A stretch of DNA of 64,000 nucleotides, taken from positions 1 to 64,000 of the forward strand of contig JACPDH010000022.1 in the NCBI GenBank assembly GCA_016184115.1, in the 5' to 3' direction. The notes beneath the pieces are model-generated. The model was given only the letters and a program-made list of their open reading frames with translations, searched no databases and was not told where the DNA came from. The DNA is from Acidobacteriota bacterium (lineage in GTDB: Bacteria > Acidobacteriota > Thermoanaerobaculia > Gp7-AA8). A program made the position numbers and the translations under genes. Of this stretch, positions 6,401 to 18,038 are shown one piece after another. Positions within the stretch are counted from its first letter, which is position 1, and each line of letters begins with the position of its first letter.

Positions 6401-8788
6401 CTACTGAGTCCTCACGATCTTGGGCGTGATAAAGATCAGCAACTCATCGTGCTTACTACTGATGTCGTGGTTCTTGAACAGCCAGCCGAGAACCGGGATC
6501 TTCCAAAGGAGCGGTACTCTGTCCTGGCTCCGGTTCTCCGTTGCCGTGTAGATGCCGCCGATGACCGTCGTCCCGCCGTCGCGAACCATGAGGCGTGTCT
6601 GCGCGCGTCGGGTTGACAGCGGCACATTGTTCGCGCCACCGAGCGCGATACCAGTCAGCGGCTCGGTCTTCTGTACCTGCACGTCCATGATGACAGTATC
6701 GCGCGCGGTGATTTGCGGCGTGACCGAAAGCCGCAGTGTGGCGTCGACGTACTGGACAGTCGTCGTGAAGTTCACTCGGGTTTGAACCGGAATCTGCGTA
6801 CCGCTCTGGATTTCAGCCGACTGATTGTCCTGCGTCACGATCTTCGGCGCACTCACAATCCGCGCAAGACCGTCGTTTTCAGCAGCCGCGAGCGCGATGT
6901 CGAGATCGAACGCGCCAAGAACATCGGTCATCGCAATATCGAGCAGCGTGTTGCCGCGACCGAAGCTGAACGGACCGCCAGCGACATCAACCGCGTTAGG
7001 GAACTGGAGCCCGGTGCCAGTACCGAGCGCCGGGTCGTAAATCATCCCGAAGCCCCAGTCGATGCCGAACTGCTGCAGGAAGTTCTTCGTCGTCTCGACG
7101 ATTCTCGCCTCGATCACGACCTGAGGCGTCGCGATGTCGACCGTATCGATGAGGTTCAACATCGTCTGCAGGTAATCGGGGACCTCGGTGATGACGAGCT
7201 GATTCGTTCTCGTATCGACGATGATCTTGCCCTTCGGCGACGCCATCTGGGTGAGTAACCCCGCTACGGTGTCCGCCTTCGCGTACGACAGGTCCTTGAT
7301 GATCGTCACCGTCTGGACGTTGAGCCGGGCTTCCTCATCGAGCTTTCGTTGGTCGGAAGCTTCCTTCGAGAGGCGGTCGATCGTACCGACTCGCATCACG
7401 TTGCCCTGCAGCGTGTAGGTGAGACCGTTCTGCCGGAGGATGATCTCCAGCGCCTGATCCCAAGGGACCGCCACGAACTCGACCGTCACCGTTCCGGCGA
7501 CGCCAGGATCAACTGCAATGTTCAGTCCAGTAAGTTGCGCGAAGGTACGAAGTACGTCCTTCACGTCCGCGTCTTTGAGGCTGAGGTCGATCGGCTCACC
7601 GGTGTATACACGTTCCCCGGCGCTGAGCGTCCTGCTCTGCCCCTCCTCCGTCATCCGCCCTCCCGTCATTTCGGGAGCGGTGGGATCGGCGGCCGCCCTA
7701 ACTACGTGCCGCTCCGTGGACGGCTCTGGCTGCCTTGGTGACCGAGGCATCTCGGTCTCGGCGACGACGGGAACTTCCGCTGCCTCTTCGAACACGCTTG
7801 GCGCCTGCGCGGGAGCAACCGGAGATTCCACGACTCGGGTCGCGGGCGCCATGCCCCCGAACGCCACGAACACGCTGTCACCGTCGGCGGCGACGTGATA
7901 CTCGGTCGACACTCCTAGGTCGAACACAACTCTGGTCACAGGTCGCGGGCTCGTCTGGAATTGCGCAACGCGAACGCGACGTACCGACGCGCTGTCGAGA
8001 TCCTGCTGCGGCTTGCTCACCGCGTTTCGAACACCATTGAGATCGATCACCAGGCGAGCCGGGTTCTCGAGCCGGAATGCCGTGTAGTCGAGGGTACCGT
8101 CCGCAGATAGGCGCACCCCGATGCCGCCGTCGAGCGGTTCCGGAGTGACGCGATCGAGCTCGCGAGCCGGGCGACCGCTGGATTTTGCGGTGCGCGGCGC
8201 TGCAACCGACGGCGCGGGCACGGACGGCTCCTCCCGAACGGCAGGCGCCTTCACGACCGCGGGGACCTCTGCCGCTTTCACCGGGACGTCGGGAACGGCT
8301 TCCGGCTCGTCGACGATGGGTGCTGATGTCGCCACTTCACCATTCGCGCCGCCAAAGCGAATCGCGATTCCTCGATCGAAGCTGAGCGTCTCGGGACGCG
8401 CATCGCTTCGAAGGCGAATCGTGACCCGCGTGAGGGCAGCGCCAAGCTCCAGGGCCTCGTCGGCCGAAACGGACGCGACCGCGTCTGGAAGCGACGTCGG
8501 AACCAAGGCCTCCGGACCCTTGGCCGCGAGTGGAAGGTCGACGACGTAGACTCCCGGCTGCGGCGAATACGATGAGAAGGCCGGAGTGACGTTCGTCTGG
8601 AGGATGAGCGTGTTCGCGTCCGCTTCGATCTTCTCGAGCGTCAATTGATCGCGTACGTCCCCTCCACCCCGGCTGTCTGGCGCCGCGGGCCTGGCCGACG
8701 CCACGGCGGCGAAGAGAGCCGCCGACAAGAGCAGGGTGACCGCCCTGAGCGTTTGCGGCTTGCTCACAAATTTCGCTTGCTTCACCAT
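6401..8788 (-). CDS. pilQ: type IV pilus secretin
   Basis: PilQ forms the outer-membrane ring through which type IV pili pass. The 795-residue protein has a signal sequence and two AMIN (peptidoglycan-binding) regions, about 40-135 and 225-320, with a Pro/Val-rich linker. An STN/secretin N-domain begins near 399 (IDLSLKDADVKDVLRTFAQLTGLNIAVDP). An N1 domain follows, then the secretin core from about 555 (VIEARIVETTKNFLQQFGIDWGF) to the C-terminal IPVLGWLFKNHD and LLIFITPKIV motifs. The start ATG at 8788 has GGAGGG upstream; the in-frame ATG at 8812 does not. It is the fifth gene of pilMNOPQ, 36 bases after pilP. Confidence 0.95.
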   Translation of the reverse strand: MVKQAKFVSKPQTLRAVTLLLSAALFAAVASARPAAPDSRGGGDVRDQLTLEKIEADANTLILQTNVTPAFSSYSPQPGVYVVDLPLAAKGPEALVPTSLPDAVASVSADEALELGAALTRVTIRLRSDARPETLSFDRGIAIRFGGANGEVATSAPIVDEPEAVPDVPVKAAEVPAVVKAPAVREEPSVPAPSVAAPRTAKSSGRPARELDRVTPEPLDGGIGVRLSADGTLDYTAFRLENPARLVIDLNGVRNAVSKPQQDLDSASVRRVRVAQFQTSPRPVTRVVFDLGVSTEYHVAADGDSVFVAFGGMAPATRVVESPVAPAQAPSVFEEAAEVPVVAETEMPRSPRQPEPSTERHVVRAAADPTAPEMTGGRMTEEGQSRTLSAGERVYTGEPIDLSLKDADVKDVLRTFAQLTGLNIAVDPGVAGTVTVEFVAVPWDQALEIILRQNGLTYTLQGNVMRVGTIDRLSKEASDQRKLDEEARLNVQTVTIIKDLSYAKADTVAGLLTQMASPKGKIIVDTRTNQLVITEVPDYLQTMLNLIDTVDIATPQVVIEARIVETTKNFLQQFGIDWGFGMIYDPALGTGTGLQFPNAVDVAGGPFSFGRGNTLLDIAMTDVLGAFDLDIALAAAENDGLARIVSAPKIVTQDNQSAEIQSGTQIPVQTRVNFTTTVQYVDATLRLSVTPQITARDTVIMDVQVQKTEPLTGIALGGANNVPLSTRRAQTRLMVRDGGTTVIGGIYTATENRSQDRVPLLWKIPVLGWLFKNHDISSKHDELLIFITPKIVRTQ

Positions 8789-8824
8789 CACACCAACCCT
8801 CCACGCAGCCATGCGGCTCCTACC

Positions 8825-9379
8825 TCACTTCTTCACCGTCTGAGGTACCAACTCTTTGACGACCTCTTTGTAGCGCTCGATTTGCGTCGGATCGTTGACT
8901 TCCTGCCGGAAGACGATCGATCCCTGGGCGATGCGGATGAGCTCTCCGTCGAACACTTTGTCGCCCACGCGGACGAGATAACCCTTGTTGTCGGGACCCT
9001 TGATCATTGCGACAAGCCCCTGTTTCGTCTTGACGACACCCGCCAGGTCGATCTCGTCCACGAGGAACCCGGGAACTCCGGGTGGCCTCTCGCCTTCTCC
9101 AAGCGATTGACGAGGGCCGATGAGCGAGCGGAACGGATCGCGGCGGCCCTGGGAATCGTAGCGATACGAGTCAGCTCCCACCGGCTGCTGCTGCAGCACA
9201 TCTTCGAGGTTCTGCTCGATGTCGAACTCGCCTTCCTTCCCAGGAGCGGCGGTCGTCGTATCGGCAGGAGCGGCCGTACCCGACTGCGGTGCGGCCGGCG
9301 CCTTCTGCGCCACGACCGGAGCCGCCACTACCGCGACGAGTCCGGCGATCAACACGAGTCGGTGCCAACGTCTATTCAT
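8825..9379 (-). CDS. pilP: type IV pilus assembly protein PilP
   Basis: PilP links the inner-membrane PilM/N/O platform to the PilQ secretin in the periplasm. The 184-residue protein starts MNRRWHRLVLIAGLVAVVAAPVVAQ, a cleavable signal peptide without the lipobox Cys of proteobacterial PilP. An Ala/Pro/Thr-rich spacer follows. The C-terminal domain carries the family pattern GRRDPFRSLI and VDEIDLAGVVKTKQGLVAMIKGPDNKGYLVRVGDKV. The ATG at 9379 lies 4 bases after the pilO stop. A longer in-frame ORF upstream is Arg-rich and is a shadow of pilO. Confidence 0.93.
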   Translation of the reverse strand: MNRRWHRLVLIAGLVAVVAAPVVAQKAPAAPQSGTAAPADTTTAAPGKEGEFDIEQNLEDVLQQQPVGADSYRYDSQGRRDPFRSLIGPRQSLGEGERPPGVPGFLVDEIDLAGVVKTKQGLVAMIKGPDNKGYLVRVGDKVFDGELIRIAQGSIVFRQEVNDPTQIERYKEVVKELVPQTVKK

Positions 9380-9383
9380 GATT

Positions 9384-10070
9384 TCATCCGCCTGGCTCCT
9401 CGCCACCCTCATCCGCGCCGCCGCCCCCGCCGCCCGGTGCGCCCCTGCGCGCCGGTTTTTCTTCCTGCGGTGCTTCCTTGGGCTCAACGTAAACGAAGGT
9501 CTTCGCGACGAAGTTGCTGTCAATCGTCCTCTGCTCCTGGGCTGAGAGCGCAGTGATCGTGAATTTCTCCACGTTCATGATTCGGGTGAAGTTGCTCAAC
9601 TTGTTGAAGAGGATCGCAAGGTCGTGGTAGTTGCCCGTCACTCTGACATCAATCGGCCACTCCACGATCGGAACGTCGCCAGCTTCCGCGCTCGAGGCGC
9701 CAGCGAGGTCAGGGAACTTGAGATCCCGAAGCTGGAAGTCTCCCTGGTCGACGAGCGCTTTGATCTTCTTGATGATCTCTTCGGTGTTGCGGCTCGACGG
9801 AAGAATCCGGCGAAGCTTCTCGAGCTCGCGCTCGAGTCCGGCGACTTCCTCACGGAACTGCGGGAGCTTCTTCTCCGCATCGCGTCCCGCGACGATCTTC
9901 TTGTCAAGCTCTCCAATCTGAGCGTTGGCAGCCGCGATCTGGGAATTGATGCCGCCCGCCTTCGAAACCCAATTCCAGTGAACGCCCCCCACGATCAGGG
10001 CGGCGATGACGACACCGATCGAGAAACCCCACCAAATCGGCTTGCCTTCGAGCGCAGTCTCGAGCGCCAT
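9384..10070 (-). CDS. pilO: type IV pilus assembly protein PilO
   Basis: An inner-membrane bitopic protein that pairs with PilN in the pilus alignment complex. The 228 residues comprise a short cytoplasmic N-terminus, one membrane helix near 14-32 (WWGFSIGVVIAALIVGGV), a periplasmic coiled coil around 45-95 and a ferredoxin-like domain (VEWPIDVRVTGNYHDLAILFNKLSNFTRIMNVEKF). The C-terminal tail is low-complexity, rich in Gly, Pro and Glu. It lies 9 bases after pilN and 4 bases before pilP. Confidence 0.93.
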   Translation of the reverse strand: MALETALEGKPIWWGFSIGVVIAALIVGGVHWNWVSKAGGINSQIAAANAQIGELDKKIVAGRDAEKKLPQFREEVAGLERELEKLRRILPSSRNTEEIIKKIKALVDQGDFQLRDLKFPDLAGASSAEAGDVPIVEWPIDVRVTGNYHDLAILFNKLSNFTRIMNVEKFTITALSAQEQRTIDSNFVAKTFVYVEPKEAPQEEKPARRGAPGGGGGGADEGGEEPGG

Positions 10071-10079
10071 AGTCGCCCC

Positions 10080-10733
10080 CTACCTGGCGGATGGCGGCGC
10101 AGCGCCGTCATCCTCCCCTTCTTCGCCTTCCGCAGGCGCGGTCTCGTCGAATTTGAAGCCGAACTTCATGGTGAAGGAGTAGACGTCGGGGCCGGTTCCA
10201 CCGGTTGCCTGCGTCACGTTTCCAACCTGAGGCTCATCGAACAGCGGGTCGTTCTTGATCTGTTCGATGAACAGCGCAATTGCGTTGGGGTTCAGGCCCC
10301 GCCCAGTGACTTCGATTGTCTTCGGCCCGCCATCCAGCGTAAGGCGGTCGAGCCAAACGAGGTCGGGCAGGTCCTGGCTGATGCGATCCATGACCCTGAC
10401 CGGGCCCTTCTGGTTCTGCTTGAGGTTGTTGATCGTGTCGATGCGCTTCTTGAGATCTTCTTTACGCTTTTCGAAGGCCTCAACTTCTTTGATGATTGCC
10501 TCGAGTTTCTGCGCCTCGATCTGCTTTGCCTCGACGTCGGCCCGTTTGGCACTCAGCTCACGGCTCTTGATCATGAACCAGCCGCCTGCGAGAACCGCGG
10601 CCAGAATCAGAAAGGCAGCGATGACCAGATTGTTCGCATTGGCGGCCCCTCCGCCTACGGCAGATGGGCCTGCCCCGGCGGCCGCACCGCGGACTGGCGC
10701 GCGTCCTTCCCGAACCAGGTTGATCTTGATCAA
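10080..10733 (-). CDS. pilN: type IV pilus assembly protein PilN
   Basis: PilN is the partner of PilO and its short cytoplasmic N-terminus binds PilM. The start is TTG at 10731-10733, which overlaps the pilM stop as TTGA and gives the conserved PilM-binding N-terminus (L/M)IKINLVREG. An upstream in-frame ATG would add an Arg-rich shadow of pilM. The 217 residues include a Gly/Ala linker, one membrane helix about 35-55 (NLVIAAFLILAAVLAGGWFMI), a coiled coil about 60-110 and a ferredoxin-like C-terminal domain. The tail is acidic. Confidence 0.92.
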   Translation of the reverse strand: MIKINLVREGRAPVRGAAAGAGPSAVGGGAANANNLVIAAFLILAAVLAGGWFMIKSRELSAKRADVEAKQIEAQKLEAIIKEVEAFEKRKEDLKKRIDTINNLKQNQKGPVRVMDRISQDLPDLVWLDRLTLDGGPKTIEVTGRGLNPNAIALFIEQIKNDPLFDEPQVGNVTQATGGTGPDVYSFTMKFGFKFDETAPAEGEEGEDDGAAPPSAR

Positions 10734-11782
10734 GCGTCGCCTACCTTCCTGATCGCAAGCCCGACGGCGACCGCCATGCTCGGAGCGACTTCGCTGATCC
10801 ACTCGGGACTGTAGTCACTCTCATTGAATGTGATCTTCTTCAGCGGGTTCATGATCTCGACGTCGATTCCGAACTTCTCGCGAAGGATCGAATCGAGATT
10901 CATCACGCCGGCGCCGCCGCCCGAGAGGACGACGTGGTCGACGCGATCGGTGCCTGAAGTCGCAGTGAAGAAGTCGAGCGTCTTGCGAAGCTCGCTGGCG
11001 AAGTCCTCGGAGACCGAGTTGAGAATCGGGATGATCTGCTGAACGTTGTAGTCGCCCACCTGCTCGCCGCGTTTGAGCTCCTCGGCTTGCGTGAACGACA
11101 GATTCAGCTCGCGCTGCACCGCGTCGGTGTACTGATTCCCTCCGAACGTAATGTCGCGCCAGAAGACGGAGGTCGCGCCCGATAGAACGTTGACGTTCGT
11201 CACCGACGCTCCGATGTTCACGAGCGCAGTCACCCGGCCATCGTCGATGTCGTAGTTCGTCTCGTACGCGTTCTGTACGGCGAACGCGTCGACGTCGACG
11301 AGCACAGGCGCCTTGCCCGCCTGCGAGATCACCGACGTGTAGTCGTTGATCTTCTCCTTCTTCACCGCGACGAGAATGACCTCGAGATTCTCCCCTTCAC
11401 GTGCCGGCATGGGGACGTAGTCGAGATTCACATCATTGATGTCGAAGGGGATGTACTGCTCGGCTTCCCACTGAATCGACTCGGCGAGCTCATCGGGAGA
11501 CATCGCCGGAAGCGATATCTTCTTGATGATGACCGAATGACCCGACAGCGAGACCGCGTAATTCGCGTTCTTGATGCCGAGAGTGGAGTTAATCCGCTGG
11601 ATCGTCTCGACGACCATGGACGAGTCCATGATCGAGCCGTCGACGATCGCTTCCGGAGAGAGTGGCTCGACGCCGATTTTTACGAGCTGAAAGCCAGACT
11701 TCTTCTCTTTCAACTCCACCAGCTTGATCGCTGAGGACCCGACGTCAAGCCCGACGAGATTCTTGCTCTTTGAGAAGAACAC
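10730..11782 (-). CDS. pilM: type IV pilus assembly ATPase-like protein PilM
   Basis: PilM is a cytoplasmic actin/FtsA-like protein that binds nucleotide and recruits PilN to the inner membrane. The 350 residues contain the family signatures: VGLDVGSSAIKLVELK at the start, IKKISLPAMSPDELAESIQWEAEQYIPFDI, VLVDVDAFAVQNAYE and the phosphate-2 loop VVLSGGGAGVMNLD. The start is GTG at 11780-11782 with GGGGTGA upstream. It is the first gene of the cluster, transcribed away from rpmB. Confidence 0.95.
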   Translation of the reverse strand: MFFSKSKNLVGLDVGSSAIKLVELKEKKSGFQLVKIGVEPLSPEAIVDGSIMDSSMVVETIQRINSTLGIKNANYAVSLSGHSVIIKKISLPAMSPDELAESIQWEAEQYIPFDINDVNLDYVPMPAREGENLEVILVAVKKEKINDYTSVISQAGKAPVLVDVDAFAVQNAYETNYDIDDGRVTALVNIGASVTNVNVLSGATSVFWRDITFGGNQYTDAVQRELNLSFTQAEELKRGEQVGDYNVQQIIPILNSVSEDFASELRKTLDFFTATSGTDRVDHVVLSGGGAGVMNLDSILREKFGIDVEIMNPLKKITFNESDYSPEWISEVAPSMAVAVGLAIRKVGDA

Positions 11783-14408: not shown

Positions 14409-14473
14409 CGGTACGCCCGCTGGGACAATGATAAACAGCCGCGCCGCCGCGCCAGTTCCGCACTGACGAAAAT

Positions 14474-14493
14474 GCCCCGCTCGAAAGCGGGGC
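14474..14493 (-). terminator. intrinsic terminator
   Basis: An 8-bp stem (GCCCCGCT and its complement) with a 4-base loop, followed on the minus strand by ATTTT. It lies 33 bases after the stop of the small coiled-coil gene and 66 bases before the rel start, so rel must have its own promoter in that gap. Confidence 0.75.
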
Positions 14494-14526
14494 AAAGCGA
14501 ATCTTCAGGCCAAATCGCGAGGGGTA

Positions 14527-14757
14527 CTAGTCCTGGCCCTCGCCCTCGTCGTCGAGGTCGTTCGGCACACCGAGACGCGTGCACGCGGCCTCATACATCT
14601 GTTTCGAGGCATTGATCGCGTTCTGCAGGTCGGCGATCCGGTCCTTGACCTTCGCCAGCTCCTGATCGATCTGGTCCTTGAGGTCGTTGATCTCCTGACG
14701 CGTCACTTCGAGCGTCGTTTCGTAGAACTTGCGCTGCTGATCAGTCAGAACCGGCAT
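14527..14757 (-). CDS. small coiled-coil protein, unknown function
   Basis: A 76-residue protein, MPVLTDQQRKFYETTLEVTR... Almost all of it is heptad-patterned helix (EINDLKDQIDQELAKVKDRIADLQNAINASKQMYEAACTRLG), and it ends in an acidic tail. It has a single Cys and no signal peptide. A GAGGGAAAG ribosome site precedes the ATG, and a terminator follows the stop, so it is very likely a real gene. It lies 34 bases after the receiver-kinase-TonB fusion on the same strand and may be co-transcribed with it. I recognise no family; self-association or binding to a coiled-coil partner is the most one can infer. Confidence 0.7.
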   Translation of the reverse strand: MPVLTDQQRKFYETTLEVTRQEINDLKDQIDQELAKVKDRIADLQNAINASKQMYEAACTRLGVPNDLDDEGEGQD

Positions 14758-14791: not shown

Positions 14792-17626
14792 TTAGAGCTT
14801 GAACGGAATCGTCATGTTGTAGTACGAGCGAACCCGCACTCCATCCTTGGTGGCGGGGCGGAACGTTGAGCGGCGCGCCATTTCAATCGCGGCAGCATTG
14901 AGCTGCGCTACGCCGCGGAGCACTTTGACGTCGATCGCCGCCCCGGTCTCCGAGACGAGCACCTGAACGGTAACCGTGCCCTCGACTTTCGCGAGTCGCG
15001 CCTGATTCGGGTACGGCACTTTGAACACCTTGTCGAGTTTCGGTGCAGTGAGACCCGGCGTCCCGATCGGAACGAGGTCACCTTCCTTCACCTGGGTCAC
15101 GGCAGGCTGCACCGGCCTAGGTGCTGGCTGCGGTGGAGTCTCTACCGGGGGCGCCTGCGTCGCTACGGCAGGAGGCGGTTCCTGCACCGCGGGCTGCGGA
15201 GCCGGCTGCTCTGGCGTCGGAGCCGTCTCGACCGGGACCACGGGCGCCTTGGTCTGCTGCGCGGCCTGCGCCTTCGCCAAGTCCAGCTGGCGCTGCTGTT
15301 CGAGCTTAGCTCGCTCCTCGGCGAGGCGTCGCTTCACTTCCTCGTCGATCATCGCCTGGTCCGCGGTCGCGTCGGCGGTCGTCGTCGCGGTGGCGGTGTC
15401 CGTAACCGTCGCGGGAACTACGGGTGTGACCGCGGCAGTCGTCGCAACGGCGGCTGTCGCAGTCGATGTCGGCTGCGCGGTTCCTCTTCCCTTCATGAAG
15501 TAGAGCCCGCCGCCGATCACGCCGATCAGGACGACCGCGGCGATTCCGATTGCAACGATCGGGGGTTTCTTCTCTTCCTCGGGTTCGGTGGCGGCGAACG
15601 TAGCCGCGGGAGCCGGCGCCGGAGAAGGTGCGGGCGCTTGAACGGCGACCGGAGCAGGAACGACGATCGGCGCGGGCGCCGCCGGAATCTCGCGCTCGCG
15701 TACGCGCTCGTGCGACTCTTCGACGACATGCTCGCCCATGACAGGAGAGACCGGCTGCTCCGAATAGATGCGGTTGAGGTAGATCGCGAGGTCGGCGCTG
15801 CTCGGCGTCGGGCGCATGCTGAAGAGCACTCGGTCGAGATCCTTCGCCATTTCACCTGCGGTCTGGTATCGCGCGTCCTGTTCCTTCGCGAGCGCTTTGA
15901 GCACGATGGCGTCGACGTCAGGCGTCACTTCGTCGTTGATGCTCGAGGGGGGACGAACGCGTGCCTCGCGCACCTGCTCGAGGATTGACAGCTCGCTATC
16001 ACCAGCAAAAAGCTTCTCTCCCGTGAGGAGCTCGAAGAGCACCGCGGCGAGCGCGAAAATGTCGGAGCGTTTGTCGATCGCCTTGCCCCAGGCTTGCTCC
16101 GGCGACATGTACTGCAGTTTGCCCTTCAGAGCGCCGGCCATCGTGTGAGACGCCTTCGAGGCCGCCTTCGCGATGCCGAAATCGCAGAGCTTGATGTCCC
16201 CTTCGTACGAGATGAGTACGTTCTGCGGTGAGACGTCGCGATGAACGAGACCCATCTCCTTCTCGTCGAAGTCACGCTTACGGTGCGCGTAGTCGAGCGC
16301 CGCCGCGACCTTCGAAGCGATGAACAACGCGAGCTCGGGCGCCATCGGCTGCCCGACCTCCACCCCTCTCTTCAGGATGCTCTTGAGATCATCGCCGTCG
16401 ATGAACTCCATCGCAATGTAGTAGGAGTTCGTGATCCTGCCGAGGTCGTAAATATGAATGATGTTGTTATGGTTAAGCTGCGCCGCGAGCTTCGCCTCAT
16501 CGACGAACATCGTGACGAACTCTTCATTGTCCGACATGTGCGGCAGGATCTTCTTGATCGCCACCGTTTTCTGGAAGCCTTCGACACCCTTCATCCGGGC
16601 CTTCCAGACTTCAGCCATCCCGCCGGTCGCGATCTTCTCGAGGAGCGTGTATTGGCCGAAGCGGATGCCGTCATCATCCTTTGATTCCGGTTCCTCGACA
16701 CGGGCAGGCGCGGGGAATACCGGCGCAGAGGGACCGACCGTCGGAGCCGTCGGAGGGGGCGGTGGTGGTAAAGGCGCGGCGGCGGCAGGTGCCGGTGCCG
16801 GCGGCTTCGGAGCGGGTGCGGCCGGGGGAGCAGGCGCCTTCGCGGCAGGCGCGGAAGGCGGCGGTGGGGCGGCGGGCCGCGGTATGGCCCGCTCCGCCGT
16901 CGGCGTACGCGGCCTCGATTTCTCGAGACCGGACAGCGTGTTCTCGAGCAGCTTGTCGAGATCCGATTGAGGGCGCTTCTTCACGTCTGCAGGCTTCGCG
17001 TCGGCGGGCGCTGGCGCAGCGGCAGGAGTGTCCGCCGGCTTTCTCGGCGACTGCTGGATTCCGGAAAGCGTCTTCGACAAAAGGTCGTCGATGCTGCTGT
17101 CGGAGCCCTTCACCTGCTGCCGCTTCTTCACGGCTCCACCCTCGTCGAGCAGCTCGCCGAAGATATCGTCCGAGGTGAGCTGTCCGGAACCGCTGGCTCC
17201 TGGCTTTGGAATCGCCATTTGCACGGTCTGCGCGAACGACGGATCAACCTCGCTCGGCGCAACGGCAAGTTGCCGGATCTTGCTCAGGAACTCGCCTTCC
17301 GAATACGGCTTTGGAAGGATGTCGTTCGCCCCAAGACGGATCGCATCGGATTTCGGGTTCTTTCCGTTGTAACCCGACACGGTGATCAGGATCGGCGTGT
17401 TTTGAAAACGGCTGTTCGCGCGGATCCTACGGATGAGCTCGGACGTGCTGATCTTCGGAATGATCGAAGAGAGAACGATGAGCTGCGGCTCGCGCTGCGT
17501 CAGAGCGGAAAGGGCCTCTTCGCCATCCTTTGCAAAGGACGCTTCGAAGGACTGACCCGTTAACGCCTGCCGAACACGTTCGGTGTAGCGAGGTTCGTAC
17601 TCGACGACAAGAATGCTCTCTGACAT
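14792..17626 (-). CDS. fusion: degenerate receiver domain, Ser/Thr kinase, membrane helix, TonB-like C-terminus
   Basis: A 944-residue multidomain protein. Residues 1-120 are receiver-like (SILVVEYEPRYTERVRQAL...LPKPYSEGEF), but the phospho-acceptor Asp is Ser53 (VLSSIIP) and the acidic pair is EY, so it probably cannot be phosphorylated normally. A Pro/Ala-rich linker (125-315) holds two copies of an LLxxTLSG motif. The kinase domain (320-600) looks active: ATGGMAEVW, VAIKK, HRDVSPQN, DFG and YMSPEQ are all present. A Pro/Ala stretch leads to a membrane helix (about 690-710). Next comes a charged and Pro/Ala-rich periplasmic spacer. A TonB-C domain (about 860-944) ends in LNAAAIEMARRSTFRPA and YYNMTIPFKL. 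The inferred topology is kinase inside, TonB-like end outside. The ATG at 17626 is chosen because MSESILVVE aligns with receivers; no good ribosome site is seen. Confidence 0.88.
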   Translation of the reverse strand: MSESILVVEYEPRYTERVRQALTGQSFEASFAKDGEEALSALTQREPQLIVLSSIIPKISTSELIRRIRANSRFQNTPILITVSGYNGKNPKSDAIRLGANDILPKPYSEGEFLSKIRQLAVAPSEVDPSFAQTVQMAIPKPGASGSGQLTSDDIFGELLDEGGAVKKRQQVKGSDSSIDDLLSKTLSGIQQSPRKPADTPAAAPAPADAKPADVKKRPQSDLDKLLENTLSGLEKSRPRTPTAERAIPRPAAPPPPSAPAAKAPAPPAAPAPKPPAPAPAAAAPLPPPPPPTAPTVGPSAPVFPAPARVEEPESKDDDGIRFGQYTLLEKIATGGMAEVWKARMKGVEGFQKTVAIKKILPHMSDNEEFVTMFVDEAKLAAQLNHNNIIHIYDLGRITNSYYIAMEFIDGDDLKSILKRGVEVGQPMAPELALFIASKVAAALDYAHRKRDFDEKEMGLVHRDVSPQNVLISYEGDIKLCDFGIAKAASKASHTMAGALKGKLQYMSPEQAWGKAIDKRSDIFALAAVLFELLTGEKLFAGDSELSILEQVREARVRPPSSINDEVTPDVDAIVLKALAKEQDARYQTAGEMAKDLDRVLFSMRPTPSSADLAIYLNRIYSEQPVSPVMGEHVVEESHERVREREIPAAPAPIVVPAPVAVQAPAPSPAPAPAATFAATEPEEEKKPPIVAIGIAAVVLIGVIGGGLYFMKGRGTAQPTSTATAAVATTAAVTPVVPATVTDTATATTTADATADQAMIDEEVKRRLAEERAKLEQQRQLDLAKAQAAQQTKAPVVPVETAPTPEQPAPQPAVQEPPPAVATQAPPVETPPQPAPRPVQPAVTQVKEGDLVPIGTPGLTAPKLDKVFKVPYPNQARLAKVEGTVTVQVLVSETGAAIDVKVLRGVAQLNAAAIEMARRSTFRPATKDGVRVRSYYNMTIPFKL

Positions 17627-18038
17627 GGGATTTTTGGCCGAAAAGCGGCTCGCTGGATTCTTGCACACGCCTACCATCGCGTCAATCGAACGAAGTGCAG
17701 ATTCTGTGCCCGCAGCCCACGTACTCAATTCACGCTTGCACGAACCGGCGATCTATCCGCTATACTAGCGCCGCGTTCGCGCCCCATCATTCCGTCGCGA
17801 ACGGCACGCCCGAAGCGGAAGCGGGCGAGCCGGAATCGAGACGCGCGATTGGCGGCGACTCCAGCACGTGACGGCCTCGGCAAGATGCCTGGCCGCGCAT
17901 CGACGACGCGGATGACGGTCGCACCGGCCCGCCGCGCAGGCGTGAACGCCTCAGGGAAACGAATCGCCGAGGCGAGTCGCTTCCCGACGATTCCGAACCA
18001 GACGAACGAAGAAAGTTCCACGGAGACGACGAGTCCGC
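17627..18038 (+). other. non-coding divergent region and long rho leader
   Basis: A 412-base gap between the divergent fusion-kinase and rho genes. It holds the probable rho promoter at 17736-17766 and then about 265 bases before the rho ATG. Open frames here are Arg/Ala-rich on both strands, with no start site or family. The length suggests an untranslated leader, and rho leaders are commonly autoregulated by Rho itself. I see no recognisable riboswitch. A promoter for the kinase gene must lie near 17640-17730 but none is obvious. Confidence 0.5.
17736..17766 (+). promoter_or_regulatory. putative rho promoter
   Basis: TTGCAC (17736-17741) and TATACT (17761-17766) are separated by 19 bases, slightly more than the ideal 17. 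The -10 box is the best match in the gap. It would start a leader of about 265 bases before rho. Confidence 0.45.

Follow-up and report, generated by a model that had tools for sequence, protein, structure and literature searches.

The 64,000-nucleotide stretch of DNA analysed here (the window) contains a single open reading frame of 944 amino acids (14792..17626, minus strand, as are all features of the window located below), free of stop codons from 17626 to 14792 and with a start codon backed by alignment, which translation, Pfam, a family scan and AlphaFold2 identify as a receiver-kinase-TM-TonB_C protein. The order of genes is rho (divergent), the kinase gene, a small open reading frame, rsh, and a cluster of pilMNOPQ-like genes, named from reading, which lies downstream of rsh at window positions 6401-11782. 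The protein matches Response_reg, Pkinase and TonB_C of Pfam above the curated cut-offs, and an AlphaFold2 model based on an alignment of 47 members consists of a receiver, a kinase domain, a single transmembrane (TM) helix, a long helix and a TonB_C domain, connected by proline-rich, mostly disordered linkers. Thus, the four-part build of receiver, Hanks kinase, membrane helix and TonB_C domain proposed in a preliminary description of this DNA is borne out by both approaches. The full-length model retrieved only kinases among the 50 matches listed from the PDB.

Scanning one genome per species yielded 80 loci, almost all of them in metagenome-assembled genomes labelled Acidobacteriota (Thermoanaerobaculia and Holophagae), with a few outside the phylum, for example in candidate division CSSED10-310 and Nitrospirae. 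The 47 full-length members from Acidobacteriota match Pkinase (47/47), TonB_C (46/47) and Response_reg (45/47) of Pfam. A frameshift or a chimeric assembly is ruled out, because the fusion recurs in the 46 other full-length members; the architecture is a conserved design over much of the phylum and no accident of assembly. A search of the open-access literature found no description of a receptor kinase with a TonB_C end.

The kinase domain (amino acids 326-588, 15863..16651; Pkinase, E 6e-40) was delimited by Pfam, residue columns and comparison with PknB structures, PknB being the nearest solved structure among the matches listed. It has the glycine loop, the VAIK lysine, the alpha-C glutamate, HRD, the asparagine, DFG and the APE/SPE motif of Hanks kinases, and the catalytic residues K358, E377, HRD, N469 and DFG are invariant in 47/47 members, as would be expected of the apparently intact kinase described before. 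No PASTA repeats were found in the 944-residue protein by Pfam, and its score against NF033483 (310) is below the cut-off of 450.

The N-terminal domain (amino acids 1-121, 17264..17626; Response_reg at 5-117, E 2e-14) is a degenerate receiver by Pfam, PDB receivers and column counts. Its (beta-alpha)5 fold is modelled with a pLDDT of about 95, in agreement with Pfam and the PDB receivers, and lysine 106 is retained, but the phospho-acceptor aspartate is replaced by S53 and the acidic pair by E9-Y10, as the preliminary description had it. Across the 47 members, position 53 is serine in 22, threonine in 20, asparagine in three, glycine in one, alanine in one and aspartate in none, and position 10 is tyrosine in 44. 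The suggestion that this receiver acts independently of phosphorylation is therefore supported. In more distant members, matching of the pattern places glutamate at the acceptor position in four and aspartate in two, so that losing phosphorylation seems to be a tendency of the family and not a single event.

The single TM helix (amino acids 691-710, 15497..15556), located by AlphaFold2 and a motif scan, is followed by a modelled helix (amino acids 757-790, 15257..15358) presumed to be periplasmic, and by the TonB_C domain (amino acids 871-944, 14795..15016; E 5e-15 by Pfam, also above the NCBIfam cut-off), which is modelled at about residues 850-944 with a pLDDT of about 97. TonB2 and TonB chains match this end with E values of 0.002-0.008. 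With one TM helix and an N-terminal kinase, the C-terminus would lie outside the cytoplasm. A domain of this type at the end of a proline-rich arm could make the protein a kinase-controlled energy transducer, in which the TM helix couples to ExbBD and TonB_C drives outer-membrane receptors, and an exbB-exbD-exbD-tonB operon is indeed divergent from the kinase gene in about 22/59 relatives. However, TonB and TolA of E. coli contact ExbB and TolQ through the SHLS motif of the TM helix, Ser-X3-His-X6-Leu-X3-Ser, of which the histidine is essential (PMC12215075), and the scan of 47 members found no Ser-X3-His and no histidine in the TM helix of the kinases: the sole pattern match (L088) falls where the segment ends and is not part of the hydrophobic core, and for L081 the scan detected no TM helix at the place where it looked for one. 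In contrast, [S/A]xxxH is present in 21/21 stand-alone TonB proteins encoded beside the relatives, and the adjacent ExbBD operons already contain this proper TonB. Energy transduction, the role first proposed for the domain, was set aside on these grounds as very improbable; since the motif is missing from the kinases and retained in the TonB proteins, the simplest reading of TonB_C is as a module for binding or sensing.

The genome of the window conforms to the same division: six TonB- or TolA-like proteins carry SxxxH (by reading), whereas four kinase-like TonB_C proteins, the 944-residue protein included, are without it. One of these (G000:C37:36604-38577, locus L006) is a pseudokinase with a TM helix and TonB_C, having HGAL for HRD and no DFG; a pilT-like gene is located nearby (by reading), and a protein of kinase-TonB_C length in the sister genome G001, matched by the 944-residue query at 34% identity, may be its counterpart. 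The missing serine and histidine suggest a simple rule for telling motor-driven from sensor-like TonB_C proteins.

The surroundings of the kinase gene vary among relatives. Besides the exbB-exbD-exbD-tonB operon, beyond which a DUF4388 gene is found on the upstream side (L025, L029, L033 and others), yebC is divergent from the kinase gene in 37/65, accD is among the next genes in 41/56, and btuF-btuC, identified as periplasmic-binding and FecCD-type permease proteins by Pfam matches of representatives, are downstream (29/70; 26/66). ExbBD-TonB or BtuFC genes adjoin the kinase gene in 33 of the 41 relatives with enough flanking sequence, a count that is only suggestive because of shared ancestry: the adjacency is lineage-specific, inherited rather than independent, and shares its region with the housekeeping genes accD, yebC and rho. 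Both sets are absent from beside the kinase gene at the window itself and at most distant loci; among the loci fetched outside the class, BtuFC occurs once (G142) and ExbBD never. A link to TonB-dependent uptake is plausible from these neighbours, but the energy-transducing role proposed in the preliminary description is not supported, SxxxH being absent. Membership of a vitamin B12 regulon was considered and rejected: BtuFC is adjacent in many relatives, yet Rfam searches of nine BtuFC loci and of the window gave no match, to a cobalamin riboswitch or to anything else.

Linkage to type IV pili was likewise rejected, pilM being near the kinase gene only in L009 and L017. The pilMNOPQ-like genes of the window, these two close relatives and the pilT-like gene near the pseudokinase paralogue could nevertheless be read as traces of a trans-envelope scaffold or polarity factor, of which the TonB_C end attaches to an outer-membrane machine for pili, gliding or division, after the manner of GltJ and GltG of Myxococcus. 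GltJ has a TonB-like C-terminal end, and the order of its parts as described resembles that of the 944-residue protein (PMC8262864). Such a scaffold is unlikely, although it comes closest of the alternatives, given that pilus genes are not conserved neighbours and that the invariance of all catalytic residues would be odd in a pure scaffold.

The preliminary description overlooked a conserved neighbour, an open reading frame of 76 amino acids (14527..14757) that begins 34 nucleotides past the stop codon of the kinase gene. Homologue searches in the 73 relatives with enough sequence found a counterpart starting no more than 300 nucleotides downstream of the kinase gene in 70, and none downstream in the other three (L077, L081 and L086). 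In comparisons with seven close relatives, most mismatches are at the third position of codons, which is the pattern to be expected if the gene is translated; almost all genomes with a match carry a single copy. Its product has no match above cut-off in Pfam or NCBIfam, the matches below threshold being mostly to coiled coils, and is modelled as one long helix when folded alone without an alignment. A hairpin search located a terminator-like end after the small gene (14473..14494), a G+C-rich stem of 9 bp followed by TTTT, which suggests that the kinase gene and the small gene are a two-gene unit, in other words an apparent operon. Upstream of the kinase gene is a weak promoter-like site (17657..17685; TTGACG-17-AAGAAT with TG before the second hexamer), one having been found where 0.5 were expected.

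Among 101 genomes of the class, the N-terminus of the kinase and the small gene are both present in 65, both absent from 19, and found singly in three (kinase only) and 14 (small gene only), a co-occurrence with a Fisher P of 4.5e-9, uncorrected for the relatedness of the genomes. Most sampled genomes of family f8 have neither. All 11 of the small-gene-only genomes that were checked (of 14) have a kinase gene just upstream, and nine of these 11 kinases end in TonB_C-like sequence (by reading). The kinase-only genomes comprise G087, a weak receiver match in a 273-residue frame, and G044 and G098, with short frames (635 and 465 residues) perhaps cut by contig ends.

In 20 loci of further families, chosen for carrying the small gene and scanned with Pfam except for G319, receiver-kinase-TonB_C proteins are also encoded upstream, but so are receiver-TonB_C proteins without a kinase (G110, G202, G343), TM-TonB_C proteins alone (G135, G179) and kinases without TonB_C (G126, G162, G190, G279); at G240, the script found no long open reading frame upstream. 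Relatives in which one of the parts (kinase, receiver or TonB_C) is missing but the small gene is still found downstream include L132, L134, L136, L137, L138 and L145. No single domain accounts for the pairing, because some relatives without TonB_C and others without the kinase retain the small protein. The kinase-less variants, which keep TonB_C and the small protein, would suit the scaffold considered above. Several lineages have the kinase and the small protein but no TonB_C, which could instead mean that the kinase senses the state of the envelope or a ligand through its arm or through the helix that follows the TM segment, TonB_C being a stabilising or peptidoglycan-proximal cap that has no partner of the TonB-box type. 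Such a cap would scarcely be expected to persist in 46/47 aligned members behind a conserved EGDLV lead-in, and appears improbable, rather more so than a scaffold and less so than an energy transducer.

The proline-rich linker between receiver and kinase contains short helices modelled by AlphaFold2, at amino acids 152-161 (LTSDDIFGELL type, conserved; 17144..17173), 178-188 (IDDLLSKTLSGI; 17063..17095) and 222-234 (LDKLLENTLSGL; 16925..16963), for each of which the motif or its class was counted. The LTSDDIFGELL-type motif is present in 57/65 relatives and 4/1300 shuffled sequences, the class of the third helix in 48/65 and 0/1300, and the DIFG-type and TLSGL-type amphipathic helices together in 59/65 complete relatives and 4/1300, contrasts that indicate conservation and not function because the patterns were written after the alignment had been seen. 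These helices are possible binding sites for the coiled-coil protein.

The explanation that we consider somewhat more probable than all others combined is that the protein is a receptor kinase which docks in the periplasm through a TonB-type domain that is not energised, and that the small protein is its dedicated partner. A single transcript of the two genes would supply both proteins. The kinase, which we infer to be active, would be held in the cytoplasm by one membrane helix, and its long proline-rich arm would end in the TonB-type domain, most likely docking on a TonB-box-like beta-strand in a partner of the outer membrane or periplasm that is probably connected with TonB-dependent uptake. 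Not driven by ExbBD, the domain would serve as a passive sensor or tether, its occupancy changing the clustering and activity of the kinase, so that signals would pass inward. The receiver-like domain would be a phosphorylation-independent docking surface. The coiled-coil protein would be partnered with the kinase constitutively, whether as adaptor, dimeriser or substrate, and may be bound through the short amphipathic linker helices. Its nearly constant pairing with the kinase gene suggests that the 76-residue protein belongs to the mechanism, and offers a concrete handle on it. More tentatively, and with somewhat less than even confidence, the locus may represent an undescribed signalling unit common in Acidobacteriota, in which a pseudo-receiver Hanks kinase monitors the outer membrane by way of a TonB-type domain that is not energised, together with an obligate 76-residue coiled-coil protein bound by repeated linker helices, some lineages having dropped the kinase or the TonB_C end while the small protein stayed. 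Few direct routes for signalling between outer membrane and cytoplasm in the inward direction are known; a kinase with a TonB-type outer end could be such a route in one protein, and a testable one because the architecture is conserved.

Receptor-type Hanks kinases, TonB-like proteins in other roles and pseudo-receivers are each already known, so that every part has precedents; none of the open-access papers searched was found to describe them combined and almost always paired with a small protein. The PASTA kinases PknB, StkP and Stk1 share the cytoplasmic Hanks domain, the one TM helix and an extracytoplasmic domain, but the 944-residue protein has TonB_C in place of PASTA repeats and an additional receiver at its N-terminus, and its gene is accompanied by a conserved one for a small partner. 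TonB energy transducers share the proline-rich arm and the TonB_C domain, whereas here the TM helix is not N-terminal, lacks SxxxH and follows a large cytoplasmic part. Within the genome of the window, the pseudokinase C37 and the kinases C124 and C58 share a kinase-like domain, TM helix and TonB_C without SxxxH; C37 differs in having no receiver, HRD or DFG, and all three are without a small partner because the gene for it is single-copy in this genome. FrzS is a pseudo-receiver protein, its receiver fold not being phosphorylatable in the usual way, and resembles the 944-residue protein in this domain; here, unlike in FrzS-type proteins, the receiver is joined to a Ser/Thr kinase and carries the conserved E-Y-E-P-R motif of the family. 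The gliding proteins GltJ/AgmX and GltG of Myxococcus combine cytosolic regulatory domains with a TM helix; compared by domain order only, they differ from the 944-residue protein in having no kinase.
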